A DNA stretch of 64,000 bases from Theocolax elegans (taxonomy: Eukaryota > Arthropoda > Insecta > Hymenoptera > Cerocephalidae). Shown piece by piece: positions 6,030-61,117 of the stretch. The position numbers and the translations under genes are program-made. Each line of letters opens with the position of its first letter. The stretch's first letter is position 1. Where the stretch lies: contig CM047429.1 in the NCBI GenBank assembly GCA_026168455.1, positions 34,207,577 to 34,271,576 of the forward strand, written 5' to 3'. The notes under the pieces are model-generated. The model saw only the letters and a program-made list of their open reading frames with translations. It did not search any database and was not told the origin of the DNA.

Positions 6030-7014
6030 TGTGACGTGGTATTCGCGCACCCGATTGAATTTAATTAATTTTAATAATTAGAATTGACCGTTGGGCCGCG
6101 TTGCCCAATACCGCGCACACAATTAATTTATTTATACGAACTGCGGCTGTCGCCAGGAACGCGAGTTCGCTGGGACGTACGGTATGGAGGATTCGGGCGA
6201 TCCTCCTTGCCTCGACAGGATGTGTAAATTATTAAAATGTCGGGGGGACCGGGAGAATAAATGAAACACACAGTTAATTAAAATAAAAAGATTAAAACAT
6301 TTATTTTAATTTATTTAACATTTTGGCCATCCAGGCCTCGTGCCGCGACAATGTTACCTCGCGCGGGGGGAAGTATCGGGAGCCAGCCGGATCGAGATAC
6401 TCGCCTGCGGTTGACTCCTTCCTGATATCCGCTATTCGGGTACCGGCGTACCCGAACACACTCCCGATGTACTCACACACATACACTCGGGGTAAGGGGG
6501 GAACGCGCGGTAATATAAGCAGACTTACCGGGGTGCGCCCCGTGGATGGCCCAGCCGATCCGTGTCCCTTTTGTCCTCCTGGGCAACGGAGGACGACGTC
6601 GGCTGCGGTGGTGCTCACTTATGCACTTCCCGTCCTTGTTCACACACACCAAAAACACTCGCGGCTCACCTCGCGAGGACGTTCCGGATTACCGACGGCT
6701 TTGCGCCTCACGCGCCTTTTCTCAGCCGGAAAACGCTCGATCGGTCCGGATAAGTTTTGTCCGCCTCGAGTGGCGGATCGTGACGTACTGATTAGGCAAT
6801 TGCCTAATTTCGAAAAGGGGATGAGAGTGGGAAACACACACACACTCTCGCGCTCTCATCCCTACGTACTATTGCGCGCGTAATTGTACACTTGATCGAC
6901 GTAAACAAATGTCGTCGGTTGGCCTTGACATACCAAAGGCGCCGACGACTTACATTTAACGTGAGTTTAAATGCTTTGTTCGCCGCGAATAGTTGTGTGA
7001 CGATTTCCGTCACA
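6030..7014 (-). repeat. Gypsy 3-prime LTR
   Basis: Direct-repeat partner of about 19821-20804. In element orientation it begins TGTGACGG and ends CGTCACA. The long open frames within it on both strands are GC-rich shadows that are not conserved between the two LTR copies. Confidence 0.9.
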
Positions 7015-7030
7015 AAGCCCCCCCCTAGAC
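7015..7030 (-). promoter_or_regulatory. Gypsy polypurine tract
   Basis: On the minus strand the bases just before the LTR read AGGGGGGGGCTT. This G-rich purine run next to an LTR start is the expected plus-strand primer, and it fixes the element's orientation as minus. Confidence 0.7.
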
Positions 7031-7108
7031 TGTACTTACCTCGGGAAGACCGAGTCGAAAGAAGGCACAATCTATTCGCGACCGCGCGCTGTCCTTTTCT
7101 CTCTTCAA

Positions 7109-8937
7109 TCAGTGGCGGGAAGGGATGCGGTCCTTGAGGATACGGACCACCTCCTGTCCTACATCTCGTGCCACATCAGCTGGGAGATTGGCAGCAGCCT
7201 CCAGCAACATGCGACATTCCCTGAGAATGTCCTTCTCGTTGCTGGATTGTACTGTCGACCCAGCTGAAGAAGCCGATACCTCCGAAGATGTACGGGGTTT
7301 AGACCCATTTCCCGACCTTGGTGTCGGCTGACGAGATGGCCCAGCCATCCTCGTAGCGTCGACTTCCATCGGGGTGGGCCGTCGCAAGTCGCTAGGCCGA
7401 GCCTTCTGCGATTGCTCCCCACGAGGTTTCGGAACAGAGGTCTTGGTCTTACCCTTTCCACTGACTCGTTGGACAGGGACTGGCTGAGCCCCGCTCTCTT
7501 CGCGTCCCTGCCTTTCTGCTTCCGCTGCTTGGTCGCTGGTCGAGGGAGCGTTCAGGCTTTCTCTGTACTCCCTCGACTTCTAGTCCGCTTTGGCTTGGAC
7601 GACCGCACTTAGGGCTGCCTTCACTTGCTCGAAGGGCCCCGTGGAATCCAAGCCAAATGCAGCGGCCTGGCGGCGAGTCGCCTCTTCCACACGGCGACCC
7701 ACCACCACTTCCGCATAGGAAGGTTTGTTGCTGGAAGGCTTCACACACGAGCCCTTCCTAGCGCCCTCCTTGCGGGTGGGCGTCTCCACCCATCGCCTCT
7801 TCGACTCCTTCGGACCTGCCCGTGGCGTTGGTCGCTTCGGTGCCTGTGGCGAGACAGGGACCTTAGCGGCCGGTGCAACGGGGTTAGATGGCGCGAAGGG
7901 GGAGTAACCCCGTTTTCGGACCCACAAATCATGCGGCTCCGAACATCTGGGGCACTCCCTCACAGTCACCCCTCGGCGTCCGCAATTAAGACAGAATGTC
8001 TTTTGCGAAATCGCACACTCCCGGTGACTGTGGTCGTTCGCCCAGCAATTGTAGCAGGTGTTTTTAGGGAGATCTACCGACCGATCGAATGGTATTGCTA
8101 CCAATCGTCGGAGGACAATTCCCCTAGTAATGACCGGGCCGGATGTAGATGACCCAGTCTTCGCCTGCTTGGGCAGGGACTCGACCCCAACATCGAGTTT
8201 CCCTGCTCGTGATGGACCTACGACAGGTGTCCCTGCTTCCGAGAACGGCCGAATCGTTGCTCGGGGTGTGACGGGGACTCCTGATTCGTAGTCGTCCATC
8301 GTCAATTGCCTGTTGCCGCTAGATTTCTTCTTCTTGCGGCGTGGGCGATTTGCGGCGACGGACTTCTGCTGCTCCCGTTCTGCCTCACGCAGATCCTCAG
8401 CATACTCTGCGGGGTAGATGTTGGCGGATGGCCCCGGTACTAATACCGCAGGCACATCCACTTCCATCCGCTCCACTGGGGTTGACTCAACCGACGAAGT
8501 GAGGTCCACCGTTGAGGCACGGGGTGTCCCTTCCAACTCCACTAGCACCTGGTCGATGTCCCGCACCGACTGGGCACATCCAGCGAGCGGGTCATCTGCA
8601 GGTACCTCGAAGCATTCGGGAGACACCGGAGTTACCTCGTCAGTGGTCTCCAAAGTCGGTGGCTTTCCCCCAGCAGTATGAGCTGAGGTGGAGATGGAGT
8701 GACGCCGTCTCCTGCCTCGAGGTCTCGGGCGTCCGGCGATGCTGCGCGATGATTTCTGGCCGCCTCCTTCTCAAACCGGCGATGGCCTTCTTCATCGCGC
8801 TCGATCGCTCTTTGTTGGAGCATCTGCTCTGTCAGGGCGATCAACTCGCCGTTTGGGTCCATCTGGGAGCTGAAATAAAACAGAAGCTTATTAGTCATAA
8901 TTAAAATATAAATTACGAATAAGGGAGAATTGCCCAT
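7109..8937 (-). pseudogene. Gypsy third ORF with zinc knuckle (env position)
   Basis: Downstream of pol, a third coding region starts at about 8860 with MDPNGELIALTEQMLQQ. It changes frame near 8650-8690, where a five-G run is a likely indel site. It continues through a 357-residue frame (8653-7580) and, past an in-frame stop, to 7109. Near its middle is a CCHC knuckle of the form C-x2-C-x4-H-x4-C (CYNCWANDHSHREC), then CLNCGRRGVTVRECPRC. The rest is rich in P, S, T and basic runs (RPRRKKKK). Directly upstream of the start codon, TTTTATTTCAG is a good splice acceptor, so expression from a spliced subgenomic RNA, as for env in errantiviruses, is plausible. No signal peptide or membrane segment is seen, so it is not an envelope gene. 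It looks like a second Gag-like RNA-binding protein. Confidence 0.6.
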
Positions 8938-9050
8938 TCACTCACACACAAGTATTCTCAAACATCACACTCTCAATGCATGGCATACAGTTACCAGGCC
9001 CAACCTTCGATAACTGTTCTAATGCGAACCGATACGCAACCCTTACTGCT

Positions 9051-12000
9051 TTACTTGACAACCCGAGGTGGTACATATCTTTTTACATCAGATATATGTA
9101 CCTCGGTCCGTTTCCGACCATGCTCTTCTAGTCTCAGAATTACTGGAGATAGTACTTCTTTAACTTCGAAGGGTCCGTCATACTTTGGTGCCAGTTTAGC
9201 AGATATGCCCTTCGCACCTTGGGAAAGCGTTCGGCACTTCCTCATGACTAGATCTCCGACCTGAAACGAGGCAATACGTCTGTTTCTGTTGTAGGTCTTT
9301 TCTTGACGTCTTTGCTCCTCGTCAATGTATTTCTTGACCAAGTCGCGTAGAGCATCAAGTCTTTTAAGACGATCTAGCCATACTTCGGGATTGTCCAGGA
9401 TCTTAAATTCCTGTTTTTCCACTTCCCTGCGGAGACTCTTCACAGGTTGTGGATGACGCTCGAAGTTTAAGAACGCGGGTGAGACTTTGGTACTTGACTG
9501 CATTGCCGTTTTTATTGCATGGCGAAATTCGTGCAAGTGTGTGTCCCACCCACGATGATCCGAATCCACAAACGTCGCAATCATCGTTTTTAACGTTCTA
9601 TTTGTTCTCTCCACCGGGTTGGCTTGTGGTCGGTAAGGAGGGGTTCTGACATGTTTTATGCCATACTCCTTCAGCATTCGCCACATGATGCCGTTGATGA
9701 ACTCAGTCCCATTATCCATTATTAAGAAATCTGGCGTTTCCCAACGGAAGACTACGAGTTCCTCGAATGCTTTCGACACCGACTTACCGGTCGCCGTACG
9801 TAATGGTTTGAGCTCTATCCACCTTGTAAACAAGTCTTAAAATACTATGATGTATTTGTATTGACTTTTACTACGTGGAAGCTCCATTACGTCTGCTGCC
9901 ACAACAGCCCAGGGTCTCTCAATGTTACGTTTACCCACCAAGCCTTGAGGACCTGCTTGAGACGTCTTATAGCTCTGACAGATCAGACACTGTAAAACAA
10001 ATTGGCGGGTATCGTGGTAGATACCTGGCCAATAATAGTCTCTTGCAACACGTTCGTAACTCTTTTCGACTCCCATATGACCCATGGATGGGTGGAAATG
10101 AGAATCTACTAAGACTCGGTTCCTCTGCTCTAAGGGTAGAACAAGGCGCCAGTCTTCTTCTCGTTCTGTTACAGAGTCCAAGAGTTTATCACTTGTAAAA
10201 CGATATAGCATATCATCCTCAATTTTCCACTCCGGAAATTTCTGAGGGCATGAGTGTACATCGTTTAATCTAGCAATATACTATGGGTCTGTAATTACTT
10301 CGAACGAGGCAATCTCTTCTTCGTCGGGGTCTGGGTTGACGGCACGAGAAAGCGCGTCCGGGACATAGTGCAAGGCTCCTTTCTTATGCACTATTTCAAA
10401 GTCCCATTGCTGCAATTGAAGTATCCATCGTGCCAACCTACCCGACGGTTCTCTGAGATTTTTGAGCCATTTGAGAGCACTATGGTTGGTCACAGCCGTA
10501 AATCGATAGGCCTCAATGTATGGTCTCAATCTCTTAATAGCCCATATGAGAGCCAAGCATTCTTTTTCCGTTGTCATGTAATTACGTTCAGCGCGATTTA
10601 ATAATCGGCTGACGTAGACAATCGGATGCTTGAAACCCTCGTCGTCCAGTTGCGTCAACACCGCACCTATTGCTAAGTCACTAGCGTCACTTTGGACGGT
10701 AAATGGCTTAGAAAAGTCTGGACGGGCTAATACAGGCGCTTCAGCTAACGCAACTCTAAGCTGACGAAACGCCTTCTCCTGCTCCTCGCCCCAATCCCAA
10801 GCCTGGTCTTTACGCAGCAACTTGGTAAGGGGAGCTTTAATGTCAGCTTCTCGATTAATGAATTGAGAGTACCAGGCTACCATCCCGAGAAAGGATCTCA
10901 GCTGTTTGACATTACGAGGAGTAGGGTAATTAAGGACTGGAGCGACTCGTTCCTCGTCAGGACTCAAGCCGTCTGCGTCCAATTTGTACCCAAGGAACGT
11001 TACGCTGGAACAACAAAACTCACACTTCTCTCGATTCACTTCGAGTCCAGCGTCATTCAACGTCCTTAGTACGTATTCGAGCCATTTTAGATGGTCCTCA
11101 AAAGTTTCGGTGATGACGATCAAGTCGTCTAGATAACCAAACACATGAGGTTCCACCTTAGGCCCGAAAATTGCATCTATAAGCCGTGCAAAGGTCATAG
11201 GAGCATTCATGAGGCCAAAGGGCATTCTCGTGAACTGCCACAGCCCCGACCCTGGTACAGCAAATGCAGTATAATGCCGGCTCGCCTCGGCCATTAATAT
11301 TTGGAAGTAAGCTTTCTTAAGATCGATTTTTGATATATACTTTGCATTATGCAGCTTATCCAATATGGTATCCATATTAGAAATTGGATAAGAATCACGT
11401 TTTGTGACTGCATTAAGGTCTCGAAAATCGATACAGAAGCGATAACTTCCTTCGTCCTTGCGGACGATGACCGGAGCAGCTGACCAATCACTCGCACTCG
11501 GTTCAATAATGCCCTTGTCAAACATCTTTTTGACCTCATTCTGGGCAAATTCGAGTACCTTGGGAGACATACGTCTTGGCTTATGACGAACCGGTCTTGC
11601 ACCAGGTTCAACCTCTATATGGTGCTCCGTTAACGTCGTAAAGCCGTGGACGTCTCCCGAGGGCAAGAGTAGGCTTTCAACTAACTCTTTGACTAGTTTC
11701 CGCTGGTCGTCTTGTATCTCAATTATACCAGCACATTCAGCGGAAATCCTCGAATCGATGTCATGAGTTGTATCTCTGACGAAGTGTCTCCAATCACTCT
11801 CGCCAATACGCCAGATAGCTTCGCCTAATTTGACTTCCATATTCCAATGTTGTAGAAAATCCATACCGAGAATGATGGAATGCTCAATATTCTCTACAAT
11901 TCTCAGTTGGATATTGCCATCAAGGCCTTCTACACAGAATAGAATGTCGATAAGGCCAAGGACTTTAAGTGCTGGTCCAGCCACGCTTTTCACGATAACC

Positions 12001-12416
12001 TTGACAGGTCTCCATTTAAACTTGTACTGTTCGACAACATCTGATCGTACAAAAGAGACCATGGCGCCAGGATCGAAAAGTGCTTTGAAGTCCTTTCCAC
12101 CGAGTCGTACCAAAAAGAATAGCCGGTTATCCGATTGGATTCCAGCAATTATCTGATCGGTTTGACTATCGTCGTTAGGAGTCGATGCCGTGTGCGTCAT
12201 TTTAGACGTACTTGGTACGGCATCTGCCCCCCCCCCCTGAACTGTACTTCTCGGCAACGAGTTTGTACGGTTCATGTTATGCACACCATCGACAACTACC
12301 TTCTCCACCAAGGGCTCGTTGTTAAGGACAATTTCCTTCTCCACCAAGGGTTTCTTGTCCTCTTTACTAGGTGTGTCACAACGGGGTGACGATGAGCAAC
12401 AACCACGGTCGTTCAC
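9051..12416 (-). pseudogene. pol: Gypsy pol: protease, RT, RNase H, integrase
   Basis: One minus-strand frame of about 1,120 codons is interrupted only by in-frame stops at 10281 and 9837. The order is: retropepsin (FKALFDPGAMVSFV, a DPGA in place of the usual DSGA/DTGA, with ILGMDFL behind it); reverse transcriptase (RFCIDFRDLNAVT, MPFGLMNAPMTFARL, catalytic GYLDDLIV, FLGYKL); RNase H (VQSDASDLAIGAVL, TEKECLALIWAI, a TNHSALKWL where TDH is usual, VPDALSR); integrase zinc-binding (HPSMGHMG, then CLICQ); and the DDE core (ADVMEL, LIMDNGTEF, NPVERTNRTLK). The domain order and motifs are those of Ty3/Gypsy. Two nonsense codons make it inactive as it stands. It is otherwise well preserved, so related active copies may exist. 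Confidence 0.92.
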
Positions 12417-12811
12417 TCCGATGGTGCTAAGCGGCTGAGATAACGATCTCTTTACGCTTTCTTCACAAATAATATCTCTGCTATCAGAGTATATTTGCCT
12501 TTGGAGTTCCTTAGACCAATCTTTAGCCTCACGCTTTTGTTGGTCTAATAAGGTTCCTTATTCTGTTTTACCTTGCAAAGCTCGGGTGGGATTGACAGGT
12601 TGTGTTCTAAGAACTTTTCCATCTGTCAAATTCCCAGAACGTTTAGGATCCTTACACTCAGACTTACTTTCAACACCAACTTTGGTCTGAGAGGGAATTT
12701 GATCTCTGTTAAGGCCTTTAGAGAAGTCAGCAAATGATTTGCTAGACTTCTTAAAGAGTTTAGAGGGTTCTCCAACCTTAAACTCTTGCCCTTGTAAGCC
12801 ATGCGGTTTAC

Positions 12812-15800
12812 TTACTGCAGTGCAGGGCGCCCGGGGCAGCTCGGGTGTCCTGCGTTCAGGTTTCCCACGTTTTGGAGGAATCTGACGCAGTTAGGACATG
12901 TTTGGAGTGTAACGCCACTAGTTCCACACAGGTGGCACTCCTTTGCTGCCAATTCGGTAGAGCACTGCTCAGCGGAGTGCCCAATGTTTCCGCATCGGTA
13001 GCATGTTCGGCTCGGGCAATCCGACGACCTATGACCGACTTTTTGGCATGTGAAACACACGCCGACAAAATTGGTGCTCAGGTTCGTTGGATTTACTGGC
13101 GTCGCCTGTGGTTGCACATACCTTACCAGGTTTTGTGCCTTTTGTGGGACAAAAACATTTTGCTGGGGCAGTTGAGAATTCGTCAAAACACGTCTTTCTC
13201 TTTTGCCCGAGCTCTGTTTTTGTTGCCCAGGTGACTGTTGAGAAACAGGCACGTACGATACGGATTTCGAATTGTGAGCACTCACTCCATTGTTCGATTT
13301 GCCGTATCGTTTCTGAAAACTATTAGCGACGTTGGAGGTACCGTACACAGCGGCTGCTTCGTATTCGCTTGAAGAAGAGTTTGGTGAGTTTTTCGCACTT
13401 TTCTTGCTCTTCTTCTTAATAGTTTTCTTCGCCGACTGTTATCCGAATGAGAAGACTCATCCTTACTCTTTTCGGTAACAGTCGCCACTTTACCCGAAAC
13501 TCGTGCTGCACCACTCTGTTTCGGAAAAGCTTCTGGTACGAGCTTCTCGCGCTTAACGTTGGAACTGGAGAATTTCGTGTCCCATGTTAAATGCTGCTCG
13601 TACTCTTTACCGTAGCTTGTCAAATCAGAGAAATTCCTGATTTGTCTTACTGGTATGTACCTACGTAATCTGGCCTCATCTGCGAGTAGGCCATCTTTAC
13701 TTGTTGTTCTAATGAGGGAGGGCATTTAAACTTATTACGATCGCTCTGAAACAGTCAAGAACGTCGTAGCCTTTTCTCCTCATTTTGTGTTCTTGATCGA
13801 AGTTCCATGAGTAAATCTTCGTCATTTGTTATACGGCCATACTCATTTAGGAACTCGATCTCAAAATGCACGCCAATCTCGAAGAGTGGCTGAACTGTAT
13901 TATCCGTACGGGAACTCCTACGCCTGCTGGCCTTCAGCCGCCCTACGAGAATCGGATCTCCTACGAGCAGGTTCGCGATCAGACTGATACCCATCGGACG
14001 AATCCGTCTGAGTGCACTGATCGCAAGAGGCCACCGCATGTTTCTCTCGAGGCGCTTCTCTACGTCTGTCCGACCTCTTTTTGTGACTGCTCCGGAATTT
14101 CCGTCTGTGCTCGGTCGTCGAGTTTATGTGTCGTCGAGGTAATGTGCGGGTGCATAAAAACCTCCGAGTTGAGCAGTCGTCAAAACACGTCTTTCTCTTT
14201 TGCCCGAGCTCTGTTTTTGTTGCCCAGGTGACTGTTGAGAAACAGGCACGTACGATACGGATTTCGAATTGGGCACTCACTCCATTATTCGATTTGCCGT
14301 ATCGTTTCTGAAAACTATTAGCGACGTTGGAAGTACCGTACACACGGCTGCTTCGTATTCGCTTGAAGAAGAGTTTGGCGAGTTTTTCGCACTTTTCTGC
14401 TCGTACTCTTTACCGTAGCTTGTCAAATCAGAGAAATTCCTGATTTGTCTTACTGGTATGTACCTACGGTAATCTGGCCTCATCTGCGAGTAGGCCATCT
14501 TTACTTGTTGTTCTAATGAGGGAGGGCATTTAAACTTATTTACGATCGCTCTGAAACAGTTCAAGAACGTCGTAGCCTTTTCTCCCTCATTTTGTGTTCT
14601 TGATCGAAGTTCCATGAGTAAATCTTCGTCATTTGTTATACGGCCATACTCATTTAGGAACTCGATCTCAAAATCACGCCAATCTCGAAGAGATGGCTGA
14701 ACTGTTCTATACCAAAACAGTGCTGATTTTGAGAACACATTGGGCAGGGCACTGAACATCCTGCGATCTGAGAACTCGTTGTCATTTCTGAAATCGTGCA
14801 AACGGTTCAGAAACTCTTCCGCGTTCTTTTTGGTCTCACCATCAAAGGACATGTTCCATATACGCAGCTCTCGTGCGCACCCTGTCCGATCGTGCGTTCG
14901 GTTATCGTCTTCACGATACCTTGGCCTGGCCTCGTAGGACTCTCTTTCCCGACGGTCATCTCTATTATCCGTACGGGAACTCCTACGCCTGCTGGCCTTC
15001 AGCCGCCCTACGAGAATCGGATCTCCTACGAGCAGGTTCGCGATCAGACTGATACCCATCGGACGAATCCGTCTGAGTGCACTGATCGCAAGAGGCCACC
15101 GCATGTTTCTCTCGAGGCGCTTCTCTACGTCTGTCCGACCTCTTTTTGTGACTGCTCCGGAATTTCCGTCTGTGCTCGGTCGTCGAGTTTATGTGTCGTC
15201 GAGGTAATGTGCGGGTGCATAAAAACCTCCGAGTTGAGCAGTCGTCACGGTCGTAACCGTCGACGTAGTGGTTGTGCATGATGTTGCAGCCACCGAAACA
15301 GGAACATAAGGGATTGCAGTCGTGGTCATGTTTGCTCCCAGTACCTCACCAAACCGTTTAGGTATAGCACCTGTTGATGCCAACCTCGGGCTTTGTGCAG
15401 TACGCAATGGCGAGTTTTCATACTGACCACTTGGTGACAGAGTTCCATCTTCTTCAGGAATGGGTGCTCTGTCACTAGCAACTTTTTCGCGATCCGACAT
15501 TTCGAACTCGTAGGAAACTTCCGTTCCTGATGGGACCACACTCCCTTTCCTGGAACGAGGTTTCCTAATTTCCCATAGTTCCTGACATCCTAGAGGTTTA
15601 TGTGCAGGCTCTGCCCTTACATTCTCATCGTATTCAGGGAACCATGGTATTTCCAGATTAATGTCAACACATCTTATCCGGTGACGCAAAAAGCGTTCGC
15701 GGCACTCTGCCTCTTCGCCATTTGCGTTTAAACTTAGATGCTCCAATTGGGCATACACTGCCTCAATCGGAAGCTTTTTCATTTCCCGACGAATATCCCT

Positions 15801-15857
15801 AGCTATGCGTGATTCACGCATAAGCTGGGCCATTCGGGCTTCATAGCTGCTGGCCAT
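12812..15857 (-). pseudogene. gag: Gypsy gag, tandemly duplicated and frameshifted
   Basis: The N-terminal part (15857-15189) starts MASSYEARMAQLMRESRIARD. The capsid-like middle (15104-14277) has FSKSALFWYRTVQPS, DFEIEFLNEYG, LLMELRSRTQ and the downstream RQIRNFSDLTSYGKEYEQ. The C-terminal part (13348-12812) has three cysteine clusters: CFTCQKVGHRSSDC, CYRCGNIGHSAEQC and CHLCGTSGVTLQTCPNC. The first two are CCHC knuckles of nucleocapsid type. The central region is present twice in tandem, and frames change at the joins, so no full-length Gag can be read. The arrangement upstream of pol on the same strand fits a Gypsy element. Confidence 0.82.
13181..15246 (-). repeat. Tandem duplication inside gag
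   Basis: Two adjacent copies, 13181-14177 and 14178-15246, share almost identical sequence. 13181-13402 matches 14178-14398. 13594 to about 13898 matches 14397 to about 14707. About 13899-14177 matches 14964-15246. The first copy keeps about 190 bases (13403-13593) missing from the second. The second keeps about 257 bases (14708-14963) missing from the first. Each copy therefore suffered a different internal deletion after, or during, the duplication. Confidence 0.88.
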
Positions 15858-15859
15858 TA

Positions 15860-17524
15860 TTTTTTGGCCAGCAGCAGCCGACGTGTTACGTCGGGAGAAG
15901 TACTCTCAACCGGGATTTCAGATGAAATCCCTAGTGTTTCAAATACTTCGGAAGTATCCAATTTTCAATTGGAAATTATTTTATTGGACTCACCGCATTA
16001 AAATAATTATTACTCCCAACGAGTAAAAAAAATTGGTGTCGGCTCAATTACAATAAATTGTAGAAATGCACCGACTCGTGTACCAACAAAATTAATTCAC
16101 TTAATTAAAATCCAAAAGATTTTCCTTAAACGAAATTTATTTCGTCCTTGAAAGAACAAAATAATTAAATTTTGTTGGTTAAAGTTGTGGCAAATCACAC
16201 ACTTAACACTTGTATCAAATTAAAATTAATTATTTAACTTGCTCACAAGTCTAAATAATCAATGTTTATAATAGTGTCTTGTGACTAACACACACCAAGA
16301 CTCTATACAATTGCTTCTGCAAGCAAAAATAATTATTAACAAAAAAAAAATCTTTAAATTATTTCAATATCGTCGGTAATTTACCAGTAATGGTAAATTT
16401 AACGATTTCCCAAAATATCTCTCTCGCAAGTTATAATCCAGAAGATTCCTCACTGGCGAAAAGAATTTATTTTGTTATGGAAATTGAAATAATTAAAGCT
16501 TCAATCTATTAATAAATACAGAGCAACAAATTATAAACGAAAAAAAGACAAAAAAAATTAAATTATTTATCTCACTAACGAGCCTAAATAATTAATTTTA
16601 AAATAAATATAAAATAAATACAGTGTCTTGTGATTCACACACACTAAGACACTATTTATTATTTTGCTTTTCCAAGCCCAAAACAACAAAAAAAAAATTT
16701 CCTTTATAATTTACACTACTCTACAAGCACAAATTTAATTAAATTATTTCAACAGTAGGGGTATTTACGAAATGTTGCAAATCCCGTATGGTTTGCAACA
16801 AAATAATTATTTCAATAATTGTCGTCCCAAACGACAATTTTTTTCAGCGAAATATATTTATTTTATCCTAAAAAGGACTAAATAAATAATTTATGTTGCT
16901 ACCAAGTTGAAATAATTTATATTTCCTTTTTTAAATAAATTGAACGAAAAGGAAATGAAAATTTAATTATTAAACTTGCTAACAAGTCTAAACAATTAAA
17001 TTTATACACCGAATTATTTTACTCAAACACACCAAAAAAAAAAAATTATAACCAATTATTTAACTAACAAACAAGTCTAAAGAATTGGTAAAAATGTGTG
17101 GAGATATAATTTAAACACACAAAAAAAGAAAAAGAAAGTTTTTTACATATATTAAAATTTCACGGCAAATAACGAATACAAAATATTAGGTTAAATGCCG
17201 ATCATTAAAATACATGCAAAAAAGAAATTTTTTAATTTAATTATTTAACTCACTCTCGAGTCTAAATAATTATATATTATAACTCTCGTATCTTTGCGGA
17301 AAAATCACACAAAGATACTTAACATTAATTGTTTAACTTGCAAAAAGTCTAAACAATTAACACGAGTTATAAAAAAAATTTTCTCACACTCAAAAATTTA
17401 CAAAAATATATTACAAGTATCGTAAACAGTAATACTCAATAAATACAAAATATTAAATTAAGTAATCATTGTTAGATAATTGTAATAAAAATAATTTTAA
17501 TTATTTTACTCACACACGAGTTTG
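15860..17524 (-). repeat. AT-rich Gypsy leader with repeated hairpins
   Basis: No open frame is present between gag and the upstream LTR. Instead a palindromic motif of about 37 bases recurs, reading like TTAATTATTTAACTTG, a few bases, then CAAGTCTAAATAATTAA. Copies lie near 16224, 16558, 16961, 17051, 17232 and 17324, with a half copy at 17489 and another copy beyond the inserts at 19506. A second hairpin, like GTATCTTTGCGG then CACACAAAGATAC or a diverged form, alternates with it (about 16272, 16621, 17288, 19470). The array would form many stem-loops in the transcript leader. Confidence 0.75.
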
Positions 17525-19229
17525 CACTCTAAACTCCAAAGTAGAAAATTTGACGTAAAATTGTAGATATTGAACAATTTTATCTTTTCATAAGTAAAAA
17601 GTATGTAATATATTCTTTCAAAAAGTAAAAAATATCATTTACTGCTTTGGGAAGTTGAAATAATTAAATTATTACTTTTGAAAGGTAAAAACAATCAAAT
17701 GTTTACTTTTTAAAAGTAGAAAACAATGTCGTATAATTTTAAATTAAAAAAAAATCAATTTTATTCCTTTAAATAGGATAAATTTTTTATACTTCACTTT
17801 TTGAAAGTAAGAAAAAATTACCGTATGAACAAAAAAGTCAAAAAATAAAATTTATATTTTAGAAAAGGAGATACGATTCAATTTTTACTTTTGAAAAGTA
17901 GAAATAGTAAAACATTTACTTTCTAAAAGTATAAAATATCTGTACAAAATTTTAAAGTCGAAATAGTTAAATTTTGACTTTCTTTCGATTTATATCTTGG
18001 GTTTATGTTTTTTAAGGGCATGGATTAAATAATAAACGGTATATTACTGCGGCGTCCGGGCCCAACGGGCAAAACGCGTGATTCGGGCGCTCCGCGCAGT
18101 CCCGCGCCGTCTCTCATATTTAATTGTTTTCGTGCTTTTCATTTCTCCAATTTGAATTTTTCAGGGTTTGAAGCTTAAAACTTCCTCTTTCGATTGGTAT
18201 AATTTATTTTAAAAAATAGCGTATCCCACATTGAGTAAAATCGATTTTAATTTTCAATTCAGTTTTTCTATCTTCGAAATAGGCTTTAGGGCAAAAATGA
18301 CCATACCGTTCGAAAGCTGAGAAAAATAGCTGTCGATTTATGTCTTGAGTTTATTTTTTAAGGATTACTGGTCAATTCTTAAGCGTGTTGAACACAGCGC
18401 CTTTTGAGCGAAAAAGGCTCCGCGCGCGCCGGGCACATAATAATATACATTGCATATAAATTAATTTTCTTTAATTCTGAACTATAAAATTTATCAATTT
18501 TTCTTTTATATAAATATAAAGTATTGTGTCTACTTTTTGAAAGTTGTATTTTCTCTTGTTAAATTTTCAAAAGTAAAAACAAGACATTTTCTTCTTTCGA
18601 ATTCTATTGCAACATTTTTTACTTTTTAAAAATAGAAATTTAGCTGCTGCAACTTTTCGAAAGTAAAAATTAATATTTTTTAATTTTTATGAACAAGAGT
18701 GATATTTTCAACTTTCTAAAAAGATAATTTGAACCATTCTTATTTTCGAAAGTTAACATTTAATTGTACATTACAAAAGTCAAAATTTAACTATTTCGAT
18801 TTTAAAATTTTGTACAGATATTTTATACTTTTAGAAAGTAAATGTTTTACTATTTCTACTTTTCAAAAGTAAAAATTGAATCGCATCTCCTCTAAAATAT
18901 AAATTTTATTTTTTGACTTTTTTGATCATACGGTATTTTTTTCTTACTTTCAAAAAGTGAAATATAAAAAATGTATCCTATTTAAAGGAATAAAATTGAT
19001 TTTTTTTTAATTTAAAATTATACGACATTGTTTTCTACTTTTAAAAAGTAAACATTTGATTGTTTTTACCTTTCAAAAGTAATAATTTAATTATTTTAAC
19101 TTCCCAAAGCAGTAAATGATATTTTTTACTTTTTGAAAGAATATATTACATACTTTTTACTTATGAAAAGAAAAAATTGTTCAATATCTACAATTTTACG
19201 TCAAATTTTCTACTTTGGAGTTTAGAGTG
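17525..19229. mobile_element. 1.7-kb foldback element in the Gypsy leader
   Basis: Two inverted arms of about 460 bases (17525-17985 and about 18770-19229) start with CACTCTAAACTCCAAAG and its complement. They match closely along their length. The centre holds a GC-rich island (about 18050-18130 and 18390-18440). The arms carry repeated small palindromes of the type TACTTTTNAAAAGTA. The insertion splits one of the leader's hairpin repeats. No transposase frame is present. No clear target duplication was found. Confidence 0.8.
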
Positions 19230-19441
19230 TATAACGGATACGGATTTTCGAGTGTCGGCGCAGGTTAGGTCTCTGAATTATCGGCGACGTTCATCGATAG
19301 GACCAAGTCGACTAGCCGGGATAATTGCGAATGGTAGCGCAGTGATGAGGCTTCTGCCTCGCGCTCCCGGGATCGTGGGTTCGCGCCCCGATACCTTCGT
19401 TGATTTTTTTATTCCTTATATTCAATCTGTACCCCGTTACA
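19230..19441 (+). mobile_element. Solo LTR carrying a tRNA-like pol III module
   Basis: The 212-base unit is flanked by a perfect 4-base duplication, AGTG (19226-19229 and 19442-19445). Its ends are TATAACGG and CCGTTACA; the first is one change from the TGTAACGG expected of an LTR. Inside, TAGCGCAGTGA (19335) and GGTTCGCGCCC (19378) match pol III A and B boxes with one mismatch each. A T7 run follows at 19404-19410. The spacing from B box to T-run to LTR end is nearly the same as in the TRIM LTRs at 56832-57518. It sits exactly at the right end of the foldback, whose last four bases form the duplication. Confidence 0.7.
19322..19410 (+). ncRNA. tRNA-like sequence in solo LTR
   Basis: The sequence holds an A box with one mismatch, a hairpin GAGGC-TTCT-GCCTC where an anticodon arm would be, a T-arm-like TGGG-TTCGCGC-CCCG and a T7 terminator. 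No clean seven-base acceptor stem closes it, so it is tRNA-derived rather than a working tRNA gene. Confidence 0.5.
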
Positions 19442-19445
19442 AGTG

Positions 19446-19820
19446 TAAATAATTAATCTTACAACTATTGTATCTTTGCGGCTGATTCACACAAAGTTAC
19501 TTAATGTTAATTATTTAACTTGCAAACAAGTCTAAATAATTAACAAAAGTTGCAAAATATATTTTATATACACAAAAATTTATACATATATTATAAAAAT
19601 AAATAGTAATAAATAATATATACAATTACTAAATTATAATTACATATAATGTATGTCAGAGAGGGGAGAAAGCAACAACAATTTCGCTCTCGAACTCAAA
19701 AAAAAAACCAATTAAAATTTCGCCGCGTCCCGTATACAAAGAAAACAAAATTATTTAAATTTTCTTTAAAAGGGAGGGGGTGGGGCAACTACCTCTCCCG
19801 AAAGGATCTAATTATAAAAC
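19446..19820 (-). other. Proximal part of the Gypsy leader
   Basis: This carries one more copy of each leader hairpin (about 19470 and 19506), then AT-rich sequence and a purine-rich stretch near 19770-19800. In the element's orientation a primer-binding site should lie directly left of 19821. The bases there, read on the minus strand as TTTTATAATTAGATCC, match no tRNA end I recognise. Confidence 0.5.
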
Positions 19821-20804
19821 GTGACGTGGTATTCGCGCACCCGATCGAATTTAATTAATTTTAATAATTAGAATTGACCGTTGGGCTGCGTTGCCCAATA
19901 CCGCGCACACAATTAATTTATTTATTTATCCGAACTGCGGGCTGTCGCCAGGAACGCAAGTTCGCTGGGACGAACGGTGTAGAGGATTCGGGCGATCCTC
20001 CTTGCCTCGACACGATTTATAAGAATTAAATAAACGTCGGCGGGAGCGGGGAGAATAATAAATAAACTCACTCAATTAAAATGTTACTTGACAATGTTAC
20101 TTCGCGCGGGCGGAAGTATCGGGAGCCAACCGGATCGAGATCCTCGCCTGCGGTTGACTTTGCCCCGACTCCGCTATTCGGGTACCGGCGTACCCGAATA
20201 CACTCCCGAGGTCTCACACACACATACACTCGGGGTAATGGGGGGAACGCGCGGTAGTGTAAAATACACTTACCGGGATACGCCCCGTGGATGGCCCAGC
20301 CGATCCGTGTCCCTTTTGTCCTCCTGGGCAACGGAGGACCGACGTCGGCTGCGGTGTCCAAAAGGCGGCCCTGTGCCGCGGCGAGTGTCTCGCGAACCGC
20401 GTTAACACTCACACTCTCACTCCCATCCTTTTGGGTATCACCAATTCACTCGCGGCTCACCTCGCGAGGATGTTCCGGGTTCCGACGGCTTTTGCGACTC
20501 ACGCACCTTGGCTCAGCCGTAAACACTATAACGATTACCCCGGATGGTTTGTCCGTCTCGAGCGGCAGATCGGGACATACTGATTAGGCAATTGCCCAAT
20601 TTCGAAAAAGGGATGAGAGTGGGAAACACACACACTCTCGCGCTCTCATCCCTACGTACTATTGCGCGCGTAATTGTACACTTGATCGACGTAAACAAAT
20701 GTTGTCGGTTGGCCTTGACATACCAAAGGCTCCGACGACTTACATTTAACATGAGTTTAAATGCTTTGTTCGCCGCGAATAGTTGTGTGACGATTTCCGT
20801 CACA
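19821..20804 (-). repeat. Gypsy 5-prime LTR
   Basis: Direct-repeat partner of 6030-7014, sharing GTGACGTGGTATTCGCGCAC at one end and GATTTCCGTCACA at the other. It differs by scattered substitutions and indels, including a larger difference in its middle. AAGT follows at 20805-20808. Confidence 0.9.
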
Positions 20805-20980
20805 AAGTTTAGGAGAACAAAAAGCTCTAAGAATTATAGACAACATTTTATCAATGCACCATTCAACATTGGAACAATTTAAACTACCAAAAATTGATAA
20901 TGAAATTTACTTAAATTCGAATGTTATTGATGATATCAATAATGCAATTGATGAAATAAAAATATTACTAAAATCTTTAA
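20805..20980 (+). pseudogene. Helitron helicase remnant resumed after the Gypsy
   Basis: After the second AAGT, the frame reads SLGEQKALRIIDNILSMHHS, then LEQFKLPKIDNE. This matches the Helitron segment just before the helicase motifs (an Ie-iL....l..f.LP pattern). It continues in the same frame as the part ending at 6029. It stops at TTAA (20977-20980), where a new element begins with GGGGGTATCC, so the helicase motifs themselves are not seen. Confidence 0.7.
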
Positions 20981-22600: not shown

Positions 22601-23046
22601 AACCGACGCGGTGGCGGAGTGGCGGAGACGCACCTCGGCCGATCACGAAAGTTAAGCAGCACTGAGTGCGGTTCGTACTTGGATGGGTCACACCATTCTT
22701 GTGCGGCTTTCGGGATCGGTTAGGTGTTTTTCCACACTTCACAACGTGAGCGGGAGGTGTGAAACATTCGGTTTCGGTGTCAAGGCCTACGCAATGTGAC
22801 TTTGACACCCAAAAATAATGTTTCGAATACACCGGCCATCTCGGGTGAGGTTTTCCCTGCTTCACAGGTTTCCCTCATCCACGGGCATAACCCCGGGCGA
22901 ATGCGAGATGGTGGGGTTTTTAAGGGAGGGATAAAAGCACCCACACATAGGTGGTAGGTGGACACCGTTAAAGTCCCCAGGGGGATAAACGGTAGGAAGT
23001 GCCAGGAAAAAGAGTGCACAAAATCAAGAATAAAAAAAAAAAAAAA
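22601..23046 (+). mobile_element. 5S rRNA-derived SINE, copy 1
   Basis: Its 5-prime part resembles the internal promoter half of 5S rRNA: GATCACGAAAGTTAAGCAGC, then GTACTTGGATGGGTCAC. A family-specific body follows, ending in GAATA plus a poly(A) run. A perfect 19-base target duplication, AATATATTCTTTTGTAAAG, flanks it (22582-22600 and 23047-23065). It disrupts the Mutator-like transposase. It matches the copy at 52960-53370. A genuine 5S gene is excluded by the missing first part and by the target duplications. Confidence 0.9.
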
Positions 23047-46073: not shown

Positions 46074-46088
46074 TGGCGCCCAACGTGG
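46074..46088 (+). promoter_or_regulatory. Primer-binding site, tRNA-Lys type
   Basis: TGGCGCCCAACGTGG is complementary to the 3-prime end of insect tRNA-Lys (CCACGTTGGGCGCCA), the usual minus-strand primer for many Gypsy elements. Confidence 0.8.
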
Positions 46089-47765
46089 AACATAAATTCG
46101 GTTAACTTCGACAGGAGTCGAAAGGATCCACGCCGAGCAGACCATAACTGCTTATGCCCAAGCAAACCCCGACGTCACAACAACCTCGTATGCGTTTACA
46201 GGAGCCCGAACTGCTTCTGGAAGTAGAGAAACACCTAGTGGCACCCAATAACCAACTCATTGCAAACGTTATCAATCCAGCTCCACCGAGATAAACCAGA
46301 CCTAAAACTATCCGTATGAATCAGGCGATTCCTCGACTGCGGTCTCAACGGAGTAAAGCGTATCTAACCCCGTCGAAGTTCTTGACGACGAGATGGCAGA
46401 ACATTTGGGAAACGCAGCCGTACTTCCAGCGTTTGCAGAGTGGGGCACGGTCTTGCAACGTATCGAAAAGTATACAACGGCAAATCGGATCCTGGAAGAG
46501 CCATGTACGGAGCAATGTTACCAAAATCTCGCTTTCGAGTGGCCATAGTTTCCCAAACTCCTTCTCGCCTAGCGCGAAGTAATCTTATGGTTTCCCTGTA
46601 CTCTGAGCATCAGAGAGAAAAAGAGAAAGTCGTCCTGTTCCTTCGCGAGAAATACCTGCTGTTTTAGCGAGTTCAGTTCGATGTCGATAAAGCAGTACGC
46701 ATACAAACCATGCTCGAGCTCTTACGATTGGCGCTGAAAATGGGTCTCCGGCTGATCAACACCTTCACAGAGCTGCAGAGCAAGGCTATCGCTTCCGAGC
46801 AAAGCTGAGGATGAGGTCACCCGACGAAAGATGATCGTCTCCGACGAGAAAAAGACGCAAAAGGTGACTGCTCGATCCCTAGATCAACGGAGTTACCAAA
46901 GTGTTGATATTACCCCGAGCGACAGCTACATCGAGAATGTCTACTCTACAACCGTCCGTTAATCCTCGGGCTGCCCTGGCTGATCGCTGAGAAGGGTATG
47001 CTAGACTTCACCCAACAAGTGCTGTACCTAGGCAGCTACATACGGGTGACGATACCGTTGGTACATCGCCCATATATGAAGGAAAGAACCATTCCTCTTC
47101 CTTGGGAGTAGATCGATCATAGTGTAGAAAGTGAGGTCGCAGACACATTATGCCATACCTTACATAAATACAGCTGTGTATTTTCATAACCTGGCGGATG
47201 TCTCGCTCAAACGGACAAAGTCGTCCGTAAGATACGCGTTATGTCTCAATAAGCATTTCGTCTCCGACCGTACAGATGCTCAATGGAGCATGCGGAAATT
47301 ATCGAGCAGCAAACGCAGAAAATGCTGGCCGATGGAGTAATCAAACCAACCTGTTCGCCTTACTGCTCGCCGATCGTTCTTGTAAAGAAGAACTTACGAC
47401 TAACCCGGCCTTGACAGAATGTTACTATCTCCATAACAGCATCCTCTGGCACCGTAAAACTCCGGAATAGCCTAGGGGATTAGCAGTACCACAGAGCATC
47501 ATCGAACGAATCCGAACGAACATCATCGAATATTATGACTCAACATCTGCAGCGCATCCTGGCACCAAAGAGACACTCTATCGTATTCAAGCAACCTACA
47601 GCTGGTCCAAGATGCGACTATTCGTACGCGACTGTATACGCTATTACCGACTGTGCAATACATGTAAAAGTGCAAGACCAAAGACACCGAAGTCCCTTCG
47701 TCCGCATCAGCCATCCCAACTATGGGGACCCTACCCTTGTACCAGCAGGAGAAAACGCTTCATCC
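46089..47765 (+). pseudogene. Gypsy 2 coding remnant, RT core deleted
   Basis: Heavily broken plus-strand frames. A possible gag remnant spans about 46316-46670. Around 46960-47060 are protease-end phrases. At 47270-47390 the start of RT reads EIIEQQTQKMLADGVIKPTC followed by SPYCSPIVLVKKN. The sequence then jumps to the region before integrase (CYYLHNSILWHRKTPE, AVPQSIIERI, AAHPGTKETLYRI) and the integrase zinc site ending CNTCK (about 47600-47680). The whole RT catalytic and RNase H region is missing. The 3-prime side is cut by a MITE at 47769. Confidence 0.68.
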
Positions 47766-47768
47766 AAT

Positions 47769-48538
47769 CCGAATTTCAATTAGTATCAAAGCTGTAGCCA
47801 ATTAAAAAATTGAAATTTTTGAAAAAAATGACTTTGGCCATTTTTATCACATAAGCACTCAAAATCTAACAATTTTTTCTTATATACATTAAATTTGAAA
47901 AAGTTTATAAATTTCAAGAAGAATCTGTTGAAATATTTCATTTATATTAGTTTAAAACATTGATTATAGTTATAATTAATAAAAACCTTTATAGTCAAGA
48001 AAGGGTTGTACGATCAAAAATTTTTTATTTATTTAAAAATCTAATTCATCGATGATTAATTACCTTCAAAATGATGCAAAGTTTGAGTGCGGTAGAGAAT
48101 TCTAGATAAAATTATGGTGTATTTAGTCAAATGTCTTAAATATAGAGACGCGAATGCATTTTATGAAAAAAAACAGAATAACCAAATACTTGCATTCAAA
48201 TAATAGGGCATTGTTATTCCTCAATAACAATAAAACATACTGTTTACTGTTAGTCACTGACACTTATCAATCTTTAAGCTGCTTACAAACACAAAACAGT
48301 AGGTGTTACCACTTATACCTGTTATATAATTGAATAAATACCTGAAACATTTTATATATAACAAATATATTATTCGCTTCCCAGGATGAATAATAAAGTA
48401 ATGTGAACTTTTAGAAAACAATGGTGATTTCATAAGTACTTATATATAATATATACTATATACTTTATTATACAAATAATTTTTCAAATATTCAATTTTT
48501 TGATTGGCTACAACTTTGGTACTTATTGAAATTCGGGT
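47769..48538. mobile_element. 770-bp MITE with 55-bp inverted ends
   Basis: The left end CCGAATTTCAATTAGTATCA matches the complement of the right end, which ends TACTTATTGAAATTCGGG. The matching continues through AGCTGTAGCCAATTAAAAAA. The interior is AT-rich and non-coding. No clear target duplication was seen. Confidence 0.75.
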
Positions 48539-52726: not shown

Positions 52727-52959
52727 AGTCAAATTCCAAACGAATATCATAAGGGAAAATATTTGTGGAAATATAGTATTTATATTTATCATTGAATCCG
52801 GTAATACTATTTTAATATACATTGCTAATTGTAAGTTCATTGTACTACATATTAATTATAGTATTAATAAAAAATTTCAATTAAACATAATTTAAAACAG
52901 TATATTTAACAATACTGTATACTGGAATAATTATACTGCAATAATATATTGTAACAGTA

Positions 52960-53370
52960 CCGACACGGTGGCGGAGTGGCGGAGACGCACCTCGGCCGGT
53001 CACGAAAGTTAAGCAGCACTGAGTGCGGCTCGCACTTGGATGGGTGACACCATTGCTTGTGCGGCTTTCGGGATCGGTTAGGTGTTTTTCCACACTTCAC
53101 AACGTGAGCGGAAGGTGTGGAACATTCAGTTTCGGTGTTTGGGCCTACGCAAGGTGTCTAAACAGAATGTTTCAATACACCGGCCGTCTCGGGGAAGGTT
53201 TTTCTACAAGGTTTTCCTCACGGGCATAACCCCGGGCAAATGCGAGACGGTGGGGACCGGGATGGGAAAAATTGGAATGTTTTCACCCCCACACATAGGT
53301 GCTAGGGGTGTCCCTGTAAAACCCCGATTAATGGGTATACGGGGTGATGAGCCAAGAGAATAAAAAAAAG
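52960..53370 (+). mobile_element. 5S rRNA-derived SINE, copy 2
   Basis: The same family as 22601-23046: a 5S-like head with GGTCACGAAAGTTAAGCAGC and CACTTGGATGGGTGACACC, a shared body (CATAACCCCGGGCAAATGCG) and an A-rich tail. A perfect 17-base target duplication, AATATATTGTAACAGTA, flanks it (52943-52959, 53371-53387). It retains the GGGTGACACC that copy 1 has lost by one base. Confidence 0.9.
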
Positions 53371-53387
53371 AATATATTGTAACAGTA

Positions 53388-56827: not shown

Positions 56828-56831
56828 ATAC

Positions 56832-57089
56832 TGTGACGTGGTGGATCTGTATGAGTACAGATCCCCGTCACTTAGGGCTCTGTAGTACCGACGCGGCCAG
56901 CGCAAGAATCGGCACTTGGCATATGGCGCGCGTATCGGTAGGCAGAAGACATGGAAAAGTACAGCTACGACCAATTGCGGGCGTAGCGCAGTGGTAGCGT
57001 GAACGCCTTCGGATCCGAAGGGGCTCGGGTTCAAGACCTGACGCCCGTTCCTTTTTTTTAATTTGTAGCAAATGAGTCTCATTGTTACA
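56832..57089 (+). repeat. TRIM 5-prime LTR
   Basis: 258 bases from TGTGACG to GTTACA. Its start folds as GTGACG, GGATCTGTA, loop TGAG, TACAGATCC, CGTCAC (56833-56871). The tRNA-like module occupies 56977-57048. A T8 run is at 57052-57059, 30 bases before the LTR end. Confidence 0.92.
56977..57059 (+). ncRNA. tRNA-like pol III unit in 5-prime LTR
   Basis: GCGGGCG (56977-56983) pairs with CGCCCGT (57042-57048) as an acceptor-like stem. A D-arm GCGC-AGTGGTA-GCGT follows. The T-arm is TCGGG-TTCAAGA-CCTGA. TAGCGCAGTGG (56984-56994) and GGTTCAAGACC (57028-57038) fit the A- and B-box consensus fully, 33 bases apart, and T8 follows. The anticodon region is a perfect palindrome (CCTTCGGATCCGAAGG) and not a normal 5+7 arm. 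It loosely resembles tRNA-Arg with TCG anticodon. Promoter function is inferred from the boxes. Confidence 0.75.
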
Positions 57090-57100
57090 TGGCGCCCAAC
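57090..57100 (+). promoter_or_regulatory. TRIM primer-binding site
   Basis: TGGCGCCCAAC directly abuts the 5-prime LTR and complements the 3-prime end of tRNA-Lys. The same primer type is used by Gypsy 2 at 46074. Confidence 0.85.
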
Positions 57101-57247
57101 ATAAAAGTACCCATATCCTTCCAGCACCCTAGTTTCCTAGTTTCTAAGTTTTAATGATTCCATGCATAGGCTTCTGCTTTACCTACGACCCGGCTCCCTA
57201 CCCTTTCGTCCTAATATTACGATGAATCCGGGGATATTCATCGTTTA

Positions 57248-57260
57248 GGCGGGGGGGAGT
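57248..57260 (+). promoter_or_regulatory. TRIM polypurine tract
   Basis: GGCGGGGGGGAGT lies immediately before the 3-prime LTR start, where second-strand priming is expected. Confidence 0.8.
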
Positions 57261-57518
57261 TGTGACGTGGTGGATCTGTATGAGTACAGATCCCCGTCAC
57301 TTAGGGCTCTGTAGTACCGACGCGGCCAGCGCAAGAATCGGCACTTGGCATATGGCGCGCGTATCGGTAGGCAGAAGACATGGAAAAGTACAGCTACGAC
57401 TAATTGCGGGCGTAGCGCAGTGGTAGCGTGAACGCCTTCGGATCCGATGGGGCTCGGGTTCAAGACCTGACGCCCGTTCCTTTTTTTTAATTTGTAGCAA
57501 ATGAGTCTCATTGTTACA
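57261..57518 (+). repeat. TRIM 3-prime LTR
   Basis: Same length as the 5-prime LTR. The two differences are C to T before AATTGCGGG and A to T in GATCCGATGGGG. The tRNA-like module is at 57406-57477. Confidence 0.92.
57406..57488 (+). ncRNA. tRNA-like pol III unit in 3-prime LTR
   Basis: Same boxes, stems and T-run as the copy at 56977. One substitution breaks a pair in the anticodon-region palindrome. A and B boxes are unchanged. Confidence 0.72.
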
Positions 57519-57522
57519 ATAC

Positions 57523-59473: not shown

Positions 59474-60493
59474 TTATAGGATAAATGAATTTATTGATCT
59501 CTACAAGCCAAAGACTATTCCTCACGACTCAGTAAGGCGGACTGTATTTATACCAGCCACTTTAAATACCTCACAGGATGAGTGTTTGAAAGAAGACCAA
59601 GACAAGTTAAGTCAATATAAAAATTTTAATTGATTGTAGTATAAAATTAAAAGAAATAAAAGAAAAAAAATTTATTATATTTCGCCCTGAGTATGCCTGG
59701 TGGGCTCATCAGTAGAGTCCAGGCATCTCGTCTCTAGATACAGATGAATGATAGAATTTAAAAATTTTTGAAAAACAGCTCTATTCCGACGAGGAAGACA
59801 TGGGGTATATATGCCCTACCGATAGCAAACATTAGTAAGTGCCACATATTAAACAGGTAGCCCCCTAACGCACTTACATAGAACTAATGTCTTAAACGTC
59901 AGAATATTGCTATATAAAGCATTTTGTAATCCAATGCCATATAATTTTAAAATATAAATTTTTCCTACTAATGGAAAAATTTATGACTCTATTGCTTGTT
60001 TACACTTCAAGTTATAGGATAAATGAATTTATTGATCTCTACAAGCCAAAGACTATTCCTCACGACTCAGTAAGGCGGACTGTATTTATACCAGCCACTT
60101 TAAATACCTCACAGGATGAGTGTTTGAAAGAAGACCAAGACAAGTTAAGTCAATATAAAAATTTTAATTGATTGTAGTATAAAATTAAAAGAAATAAAAG
60201 AAAAAAAATTTATTATATTTCGCCCTGAGTATGCCTGGTGGGCTCATCAGTAGAGTCCAGGCATCTCGTCTCTAGATACAGATGAATGATAGAATTTAAA
60301 AATTTTTGAAAAACAGCTCTATTCCGACGAGGAAGACATGGGGTATATATGCCCTACCGATAGCAAACATTAGTAAGTGCCACATATTAAACAGGTAGCC
60401 CCCTAACGCACTTACATAGAACTAATGTCTTAAACGTCAGAATATTGCTATATAAAGCATTTTGTAATCCAATGCCATATAATTTTAAAATAT
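59474..60493. repeat. Direct duplication, two 482-bp copies
   Basis: 59474-59955 and 60012-60493 are near-identical direct repeats, 538 bases apart, with a unique 56-base spacer. Each copy opens with TTATAGGATAAATGAA and contains the same 50-codon frame (INEFIDLYKPKTIPHDSVRR onward) and the same hairpin, GCCTGG to CCAGGC. I do not recognise the encoded peptide. The TATAG before the frame could be a splice acceptor, so an exon or a gene-derived repeat is possible. Confidence 0.85.
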
Positions 60494-61117
60494 TTAAAAA
60501 TTTTTCCAATAGTAGGAAAAATTTATATTTTATCATGCTTCTAAAGAAAAAACTATTTTCCATGCAATAATGACAAATTATACCTTGTAGAAATTGCCCA
60601 TTATGAAACAATTTTTCTCACATTTCTTAACCAATTTCTAACGATTTGATCAAAATGTTAATGAACGGTCTAAAAAGTGGGTAAACATTGGGCGATTTCT
60701 ACTTGGATTGCATTTTGTACATAAAACAAGAATTAATCTTTATTTTTTTCCAGTAAAAGAATTTTAAAAGCATGCAGCATTTTTAAGTAACTGTTAAACA
60801 CACACACACACACATGTGTATATACATACAGGATATATATATATATATGCATGCTTACAAGCAATTTTTCGGTACTTAAAAGTCAAGGAATACTCGTTTA
60901 ATATTACCTTTACTTACGTATATTTTTTATAATTATCTACTGGAAATTCTTTTTGAAAATAATTACTACATTTTTTTTGTAAAGGTATTAAAATCTTAAT
61001 GTTTAAAGCTAATGCTAATTTATTTCTATAACATTTAACTACAAAATTGCGCCTATTCATTCAAAATATTTGGCACTTTCAATTTTTATACTCTATAATA
61101 GTTAAAAATAAGTTGGA

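Follow-up and report, generated by a model that had tools for sequence, protein, structure and literature searches.

The 64,000-nucleotide stretch of Theocolax elegans DNA that we analyzed (the window) contains at positions 56832–57518 a complete miniature LTR element (TRIM) of 687 bp, which carries a tRNA-like module in each of its LTRs. Judged from its sequence, the TRIM is of the Helenus kind, the group of TRIMs with tRNA-derived LTR sequence named by Kojima 2024 (PMC10886601); it agrees with that kind in the structural features tested and was set beside the named families by description. It is probably a Helenus-group TRIM (TRIMp3 type) that is transcribed by RNA polymerase III (pol III) with read-through, mobilized in Gypsy-type particles, and primed by tRNA-Lys. 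The structure of the element, its copies, their duplications, a trace of the primer, and the T-run in nearly all LTRs read were observed directly in the DNA.

All parts of a small LTR element listed in the preliminary description (258-bp LTRs, an ATAC duplication, a tRNA-Lys primer site, a purine tract, and no evident coding) could be re-read on the forward strand. As judged from the sequence and by repeat comparison, the LTRs are direct repeats of 258 nt each (5′ LTR, 56832–57089; 3′ LTR, 57261–57518) that differ at two sites, and both open with TG and close with CA. They are flanked by the target site duplication ATAC, which is found at 56828–56831 on the left and at 57519–57522 on the right (no strand assigned). 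The 5′ LTR is organized into U3 (56832–56976, 145 bp, with a boundary that we infer under the pol III model and a stable predicted fold, z −3.2), the tRNA-like module (56977–57049), a T8 run resembling a pol III terminator (57052–57059), and a putative U5 (57060–57089), which separates the T8 run from the primer binding site (PBS). The module and the T8 run recur in the 3′ LTR at 57406–57478 and 57481–57488, respectively. The internal region (57090–57260, 171 bp) starts with the PBS TGGCGCCCAAC (57090–57100), which is complementary to tRNA-Lys1,2 over 11 nt, and ends with the polypurine tract (PPT) GGCGGGGGGGAGT (57248–57260), of which variants exist among the copies. No coding sequence is evident in this region; the ATG-started open reading frames of at least 40 amino acids that overlap the TRIM measure 48 amino acids (twice, forward strand) as well as 108 and 88 amino acids (reverse strand), with 108 as the largest. 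A search of the TRIM LTR for TATA, AATAAA, and ATTAAA found none of these motifs.

For each LTR, a tRNA-like module whose A and B boxes follow the consensus had been described, together with a T8 run; this is corroborated by Rfam matches and by direct reading of the boxes. The Rfam tRNA model (RF00005, cut-off 29) scores 35.5 bits for the 5′ module and 36.6 bits for the 3′ module. With E-values of 0.001 and 0.00048, respectively, for the whole 64 kb on both strands, these matches are unlikely to have arisen by chance, and they are the only two gathering-level Rfam matches in the 64-kb window. No match to the 5S model was found by Rfam in the TRIM LTRs, which match the tRNA model instead. Box A (TAGCGCAGTGG, 56984–56994) and box B (GGTTCAAGACC, 57028–57038) are spaced 33 nt apart. 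All stem pairs of the acceptor (7/7), D (4/4), and T (5/5) arms are present, and the anticodon arm is replaced by a 6-bp hairpin with the 4-nt loop GAUC (one pair of which is broken in the 3′ LTR module), leaving no 7-nt anticodon loop. ARAGORN called the 3′ LTR module (57406–57480) as tRNA-??? with an odd four-base anticodon and missed the module of the 5′ LTR. The minimum-energy folds of both modules differ from the cloverleaf, which is 7 to 8 kcal/mol less stable (5′ module, −36.0 for the best fold versus −29.0 kcal/mol; 3′ module, −33.0 versus −25.2 kcal/mol). Because of the replaced anticodon arm and the lower stability of the cloverleaf, the module looks like a promoter, not like a decoding tRNA. 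The tRNA-like parts of Helenus are likewise described as mostly not functional tRNA (PMC10886601).

We queried the genome (658 Mb in 1277 contigs, of which C1–C7 span 66–111 Mb) with the LTR and 11 nt of the adjoining PBS. The best 40 of 1081 first-look candidates were scored; each of them is 99 or 100% identical, and the window copy is among them. This choice of query, together with the scoring of the best candidates only, favors young copies and disfavors solo LTRs in the set. The 40 matches were read as 33 loci plus the window, corresponding to 34 element groups plus the window copy (35). Among these best 40 of 1081 matches, 26 of the 35 groups show matching flanks (24 of the 34 fetched groups by script, L040 by eye, and the window copy), and nine have none. 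Sixteen of the 26 matching flanks are exactly 4 bp long, and the other ten lie within AT repeats, where their length is unreadable. The commonest duplication in the same set is ATAT, with 12 of 24 tallied (23 fetched groups and the window; L015 with TAAT and L040 with CAAG were left out). Tandem LTR-internal arrays were found at three loci, with four LTRs at L009, three at L015, and five, one of them partial, at L016.

Within 26 elements that have two LTRs, the paired repeats show 55 differences over 6706 sites (0.82%, median of one per pair), leaving out the three arrays, the truncated 3′ LTRs of L026, L028, L029, and L039, and the single LTRs L035 and L040. The mean divergence between copies, calculated for the first LTRs of 34 elements (561 pairs), is also 0.82% and thus equals the divergence within elements, as a recent burst would give. 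The young age that had been read from the two LTR differences of the window copy is upheld in the form of recent activity. The truncated 3′ LTR of L028 lacks LTR positions 126–225 and hence the entire tRNA-like module.

An alignment of 69 LTRs (67 near-full-length LTRs from the 33 loci and the two of the window, with shorter pieces excluded) contains 71 substitution alleles over 258 sites, corresponding to 0.275 per site for the whole LTR. The values are 0.297 for U3, 0.301 for the tRNA-like part, and 0.133 for U5, as well as 0.364 for box A (four alleles), 0.182 for box B (two alleles), and 0.125 for the T-run. Conservation of both boxes beyond the LTR average, which the preliminary description had proposed as a check, is not found inside the family; this result weighs little for so young a family and with only four and two alleles in the boxes. 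Box A is exact in 64 and box B in 66 of the 69 LTRs, and an unbroken run of 7 to 9 T is found in 68 of them (best 40 of 1081 matches). Given these T-runs, pol III would have to read through in order to make a full-length RNA.

Two copies of the family retain a trace of the primer. The PBS of the TRIM matches tRNA-Lys1,2 over 11 nt only, whereas the site of this tRNA comprises 18 nt, TGGCGCCCAACGTGGGGC (PMC8775094). Among 36 LTR-PBS junctions caught by pattern (which missed those of L018, L035, and some of the array units), 34 show the short site, one of them with a substitution, and two are tRNA-extended. In these two copies, L041 and L040, the LTR is followed by TGGCGCCCAACGTGGGG(C)TCGA and then by the 16 terminal nt of U5 once more. 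The 5′ LTR of L041 leads into TGGCGCCCAACGTGGGGCTCGA, this repeated 16-nt end of U5, and then the primer site, and its 3′ LTR is without the extension. L040, a single LTR, carries the same extension minus one base before its right-hand CAAG duplication. The 21–22 nt in L041 and L040 were most likely copied from the tRNA-Lys primer, since the element's own PBS matches only 11 nt of the 18-nt tRNA site. The extra letters presumably run past position 58 of tRNA-Lys, and we take their last four letters to fit the universal T loop. In our interpretation, plus-strand synthesis extended ∼22 nt into the attached tRNA and, missing the primer site, subsequently landed on U5. Because the extension is one-sided in L041 and at the outer end in L040, the arrangement suggests renewed transposition of a copy bearing the extension. 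At L035, an LTR of the family and a piece of other DNA, which has a full Lys site at its end, abut head to head at a primer-site palindrome; we tentatively interpret this as a joint with another Lys-primed element. The tRNA-Lys sequence in two copies constitutes physical evidence of the primer, whereas the published evidence, in the accessible part of the report on Helenus, is complementarity (PMC10886601).

According to the accessible part of the same report, Helenus elements are 311–1263 bp long, occur in wasps, fish, bivalves, fungi, and a plant, and include 40 families from 14 genomes of wasps; A and B boxes are conserved across families, and tandem arrays were noted for LTR-11_DR (PMC10886601). 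Animal Helenus elements show 4-bp duplications and Gypsy-like primer regions, and the primer sites of the hymenopteran families match Lys, Leu, Trp, or Arg (PMC10886601). The TRIM resembles Helenus in being short and without evident coding and in its tRNA-like LTR sequence with A and B boxes, its PBS, and its PPT. It further shares 4-bp duplications with animal Helenus (exactly 4 bp in 16 of 35 groups from the best 40 of 1081 matches) and the tRNA-Lys primer site with hymenopteran Helenus. The preliminary description had presented the tRNA-based LTR as a novelty, a parallel invention to the plant element Cassandra. This claim falls, as Helenus already is of this kind and includes Lys-primed families from Hymenoptera (PMC10886601). 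The accessible part of that report describes neither a terminator in the LTRs of Helenus nor traces of the tRNA primer (PMC10886601); the TRIM family shows a terminator-like T-run and an apparent primer trace. A search of the literature since 2023 on Helenus returned no report beyond Kojima 2024 (PMC10886601), and a search on pol III or tRNA-like LTR retrotransposons in Hymenoptera returned only the same paper besides a frameshifting review.

Other miniature elements share single features with the TRIM. Cassandra likewise has a pol III promoter and terminator in its LTRs and forms tandem LTR-internal arrays (PMC7215508), but it is a plant element, and its module derives from 5S rRNA rather than tRNA. 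The LTR module of Ajax from nemerteans also derives from a small RNA, in this case 5S, and its duplications measure 5 bp, unlike those of the TRIM (PMC10886601). PbTRIM of ants is hymenopteran as well and generates 4-bp duplications with ATAT as the commonest; in contrast to the TRIM, it possesses a tRNA-Leu PBS and a TATA box in U3, and a tRNA module is not described in the accessible part of the source (PMC3532108). SINEs, which are non-LTR elements, differ from the TRIM by their 3′ tail, their long duplications, and the lack of LTRs.

Two Gypsy-like elements of the window were considered as partners. A broken Gypsy-like remnant at 46074–47797 features a tRNA-Lys PBS and an integrase zinc-binding domain and shares only the primer site with the TRIM; it represents a candidate type of helper. 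The large Gypsy-type element at 6031–20807 (reverse strand) contains reverse transcriptase, RNase H, and integrase domains (Pfam scan), and its LTRs start with TGTGACG, as does the TRIM LTR. It was rejected as a partner, as no Lys primer site within one mismatch is found at its LTR. When the LTR and internal region of the TRIM were compared with the rest of the window, the remnant at 46074 included, and with 200 kb of sampled genome (E 1e-3), no other match was obtained. A strict box pattern combined with close repeat pairs, applied to the same 200 kb and the window, yielded the TRIM at 56832–57518 as the only box-bearing pair; one further box match, in L055, is a SINE. Ten viral contigs were covered by a box-pattern scan.

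The window also contains two copies of a SINE (22602–23040 and 52958–53375) whose tail is A-rich and whose target duplications are long; Rfam reports nothing for it at the gathering score. The head of this SINE appears to be a tRNA-like A box joined to a segment that, by eye, we take to be 5S rRNA-like. The U3 of the TRIM resembles the SINE near 52958 over ∼13 nt, which we assume to be coincidental. A tandem duplication with 538-nt spacing at 59474–60526 is 98.5% identical over 516 nt and fully identical over 300 nt.

In the model that we favor, boxes A and B would recruit pol III to the 5′ LTR, with initiation near 56977. The majority of transcripts would end already at the T8 run of that LTR, as tRNA-like RNAs of ∼83 nt; a minority would read through and extend to 57488, at the T8 run of the 3′ LTR, yielding genomic RNA of ∼512 nt. 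The terminal repeat (R) of this RNA would be the tRNA-like module itself. The genomic RNA would then be taken up by particles of a Gypsy-type element, where tRNA-Lys would prime at the PBS and reverse transcription would involve an R-to-R jump. Integration would produce 4-bp duplications, often at ATAT-like sites. The use of pol III, the read-through, the limits of R, and the Gypsy partner are thus proposed here as parts of one model. The geometry of the TRIM fits the transcription model of Cassandra, in which the transcript starts in the 5′ LTR module and ends at the 3′ LTR terminator, and the module sets R (PMC10886601); for Cassandra arrays, read-through of intervening LTRs is presumed (PMC7215508). 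Of the earlier proposal that a pol III transcript from the 5′ LTR would end in that LTR, the terminator-like T-run is supported (at least 7 T in 68 of the 69 aligned LTRs), and the transcription by pol III is a prediction. An extension of the model, which we regard as unlikely, is that the module serves both as R region and as a switch. The terminator within the LTR would keep nearly all pol III output short, rare read-through alone would give genomic RNA, and the efficiency of termination would set transposition. The short tRNA-like RNA would have a role of its own, for example in competing for host or Gypsy factors.

The T8 run of the 5′ LTR should stop pol III and counts against a full-length pol III RNA. 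Further points against the favored model are the variation of the boxes within the family, which is about that of the rest of the LTR, the minimum-energy folds that differ from a cloverleaf, the 5′ module missed by ARAGORN, and the negative search of the window and 200 kb of sampled genome for an autonomous partner with shared sequence. The main rival to the pol III model is transcription by pol II from U3: in a Helenus-type TRIM, the genomic RNA would stem from a TATA-less U3 promoter, and the pol III module would give a short side product or be silent. This reading, which we judge somewhat unlikely, gains from the T-runs (7 T or longer in all but one of 69 LTRs), which should stop pol III before the PBS, and from a U3 of 145 bp that folds stably, but the LTR contains no TATA, AATAAA, or ATTAAA, and in the published model of Cassandra pol III runs from the 5′ to the 3′ LTR despite the terminators in the LTRs (PMC10886601, PMC7215508).

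Alternatively, the tRNA-like part could be the fossil of a SINE or tRNA that was inserted into the LTR and now has no role. The boxes lack extra conservation within the family, the anticodon arm is broken, and the Rfam score is modest, all of which would suit a fossil. We nevertheless consider it quite improbable: in a family that has been spreading recently, nearly all LTRs have A and B boxes of consensus sequence, acceptor, D, and T arms that are intact, and a T-run, and Kojima 2024 reports box conservation across families (PMC10886601). That the module is a true host tRNA gene or an ordinary SINE, with the repeat pair as a chance duplication, agrees with the label that Rfam gives to the module and is hardly credible otherwise: there is no 7-nt anticodon loop, the dispersed copies possess TG...CA LTRs, a PBS, a PPT, and short duplications, and they lack the poly(A) tail or long duplication found with the SINE in L055.

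New here are the trace of the tRNA-Lys primer in two copies and the T-run of 7 or more in 68 of 69 LTRs. The TRIM belongs to a Helenus-type family that is young and of high identity, in an assembly whose contigs are very long. In this family, it can be tested directly whether the genomic RNA is a pol III product even though every LTR contains a terminator-like run.
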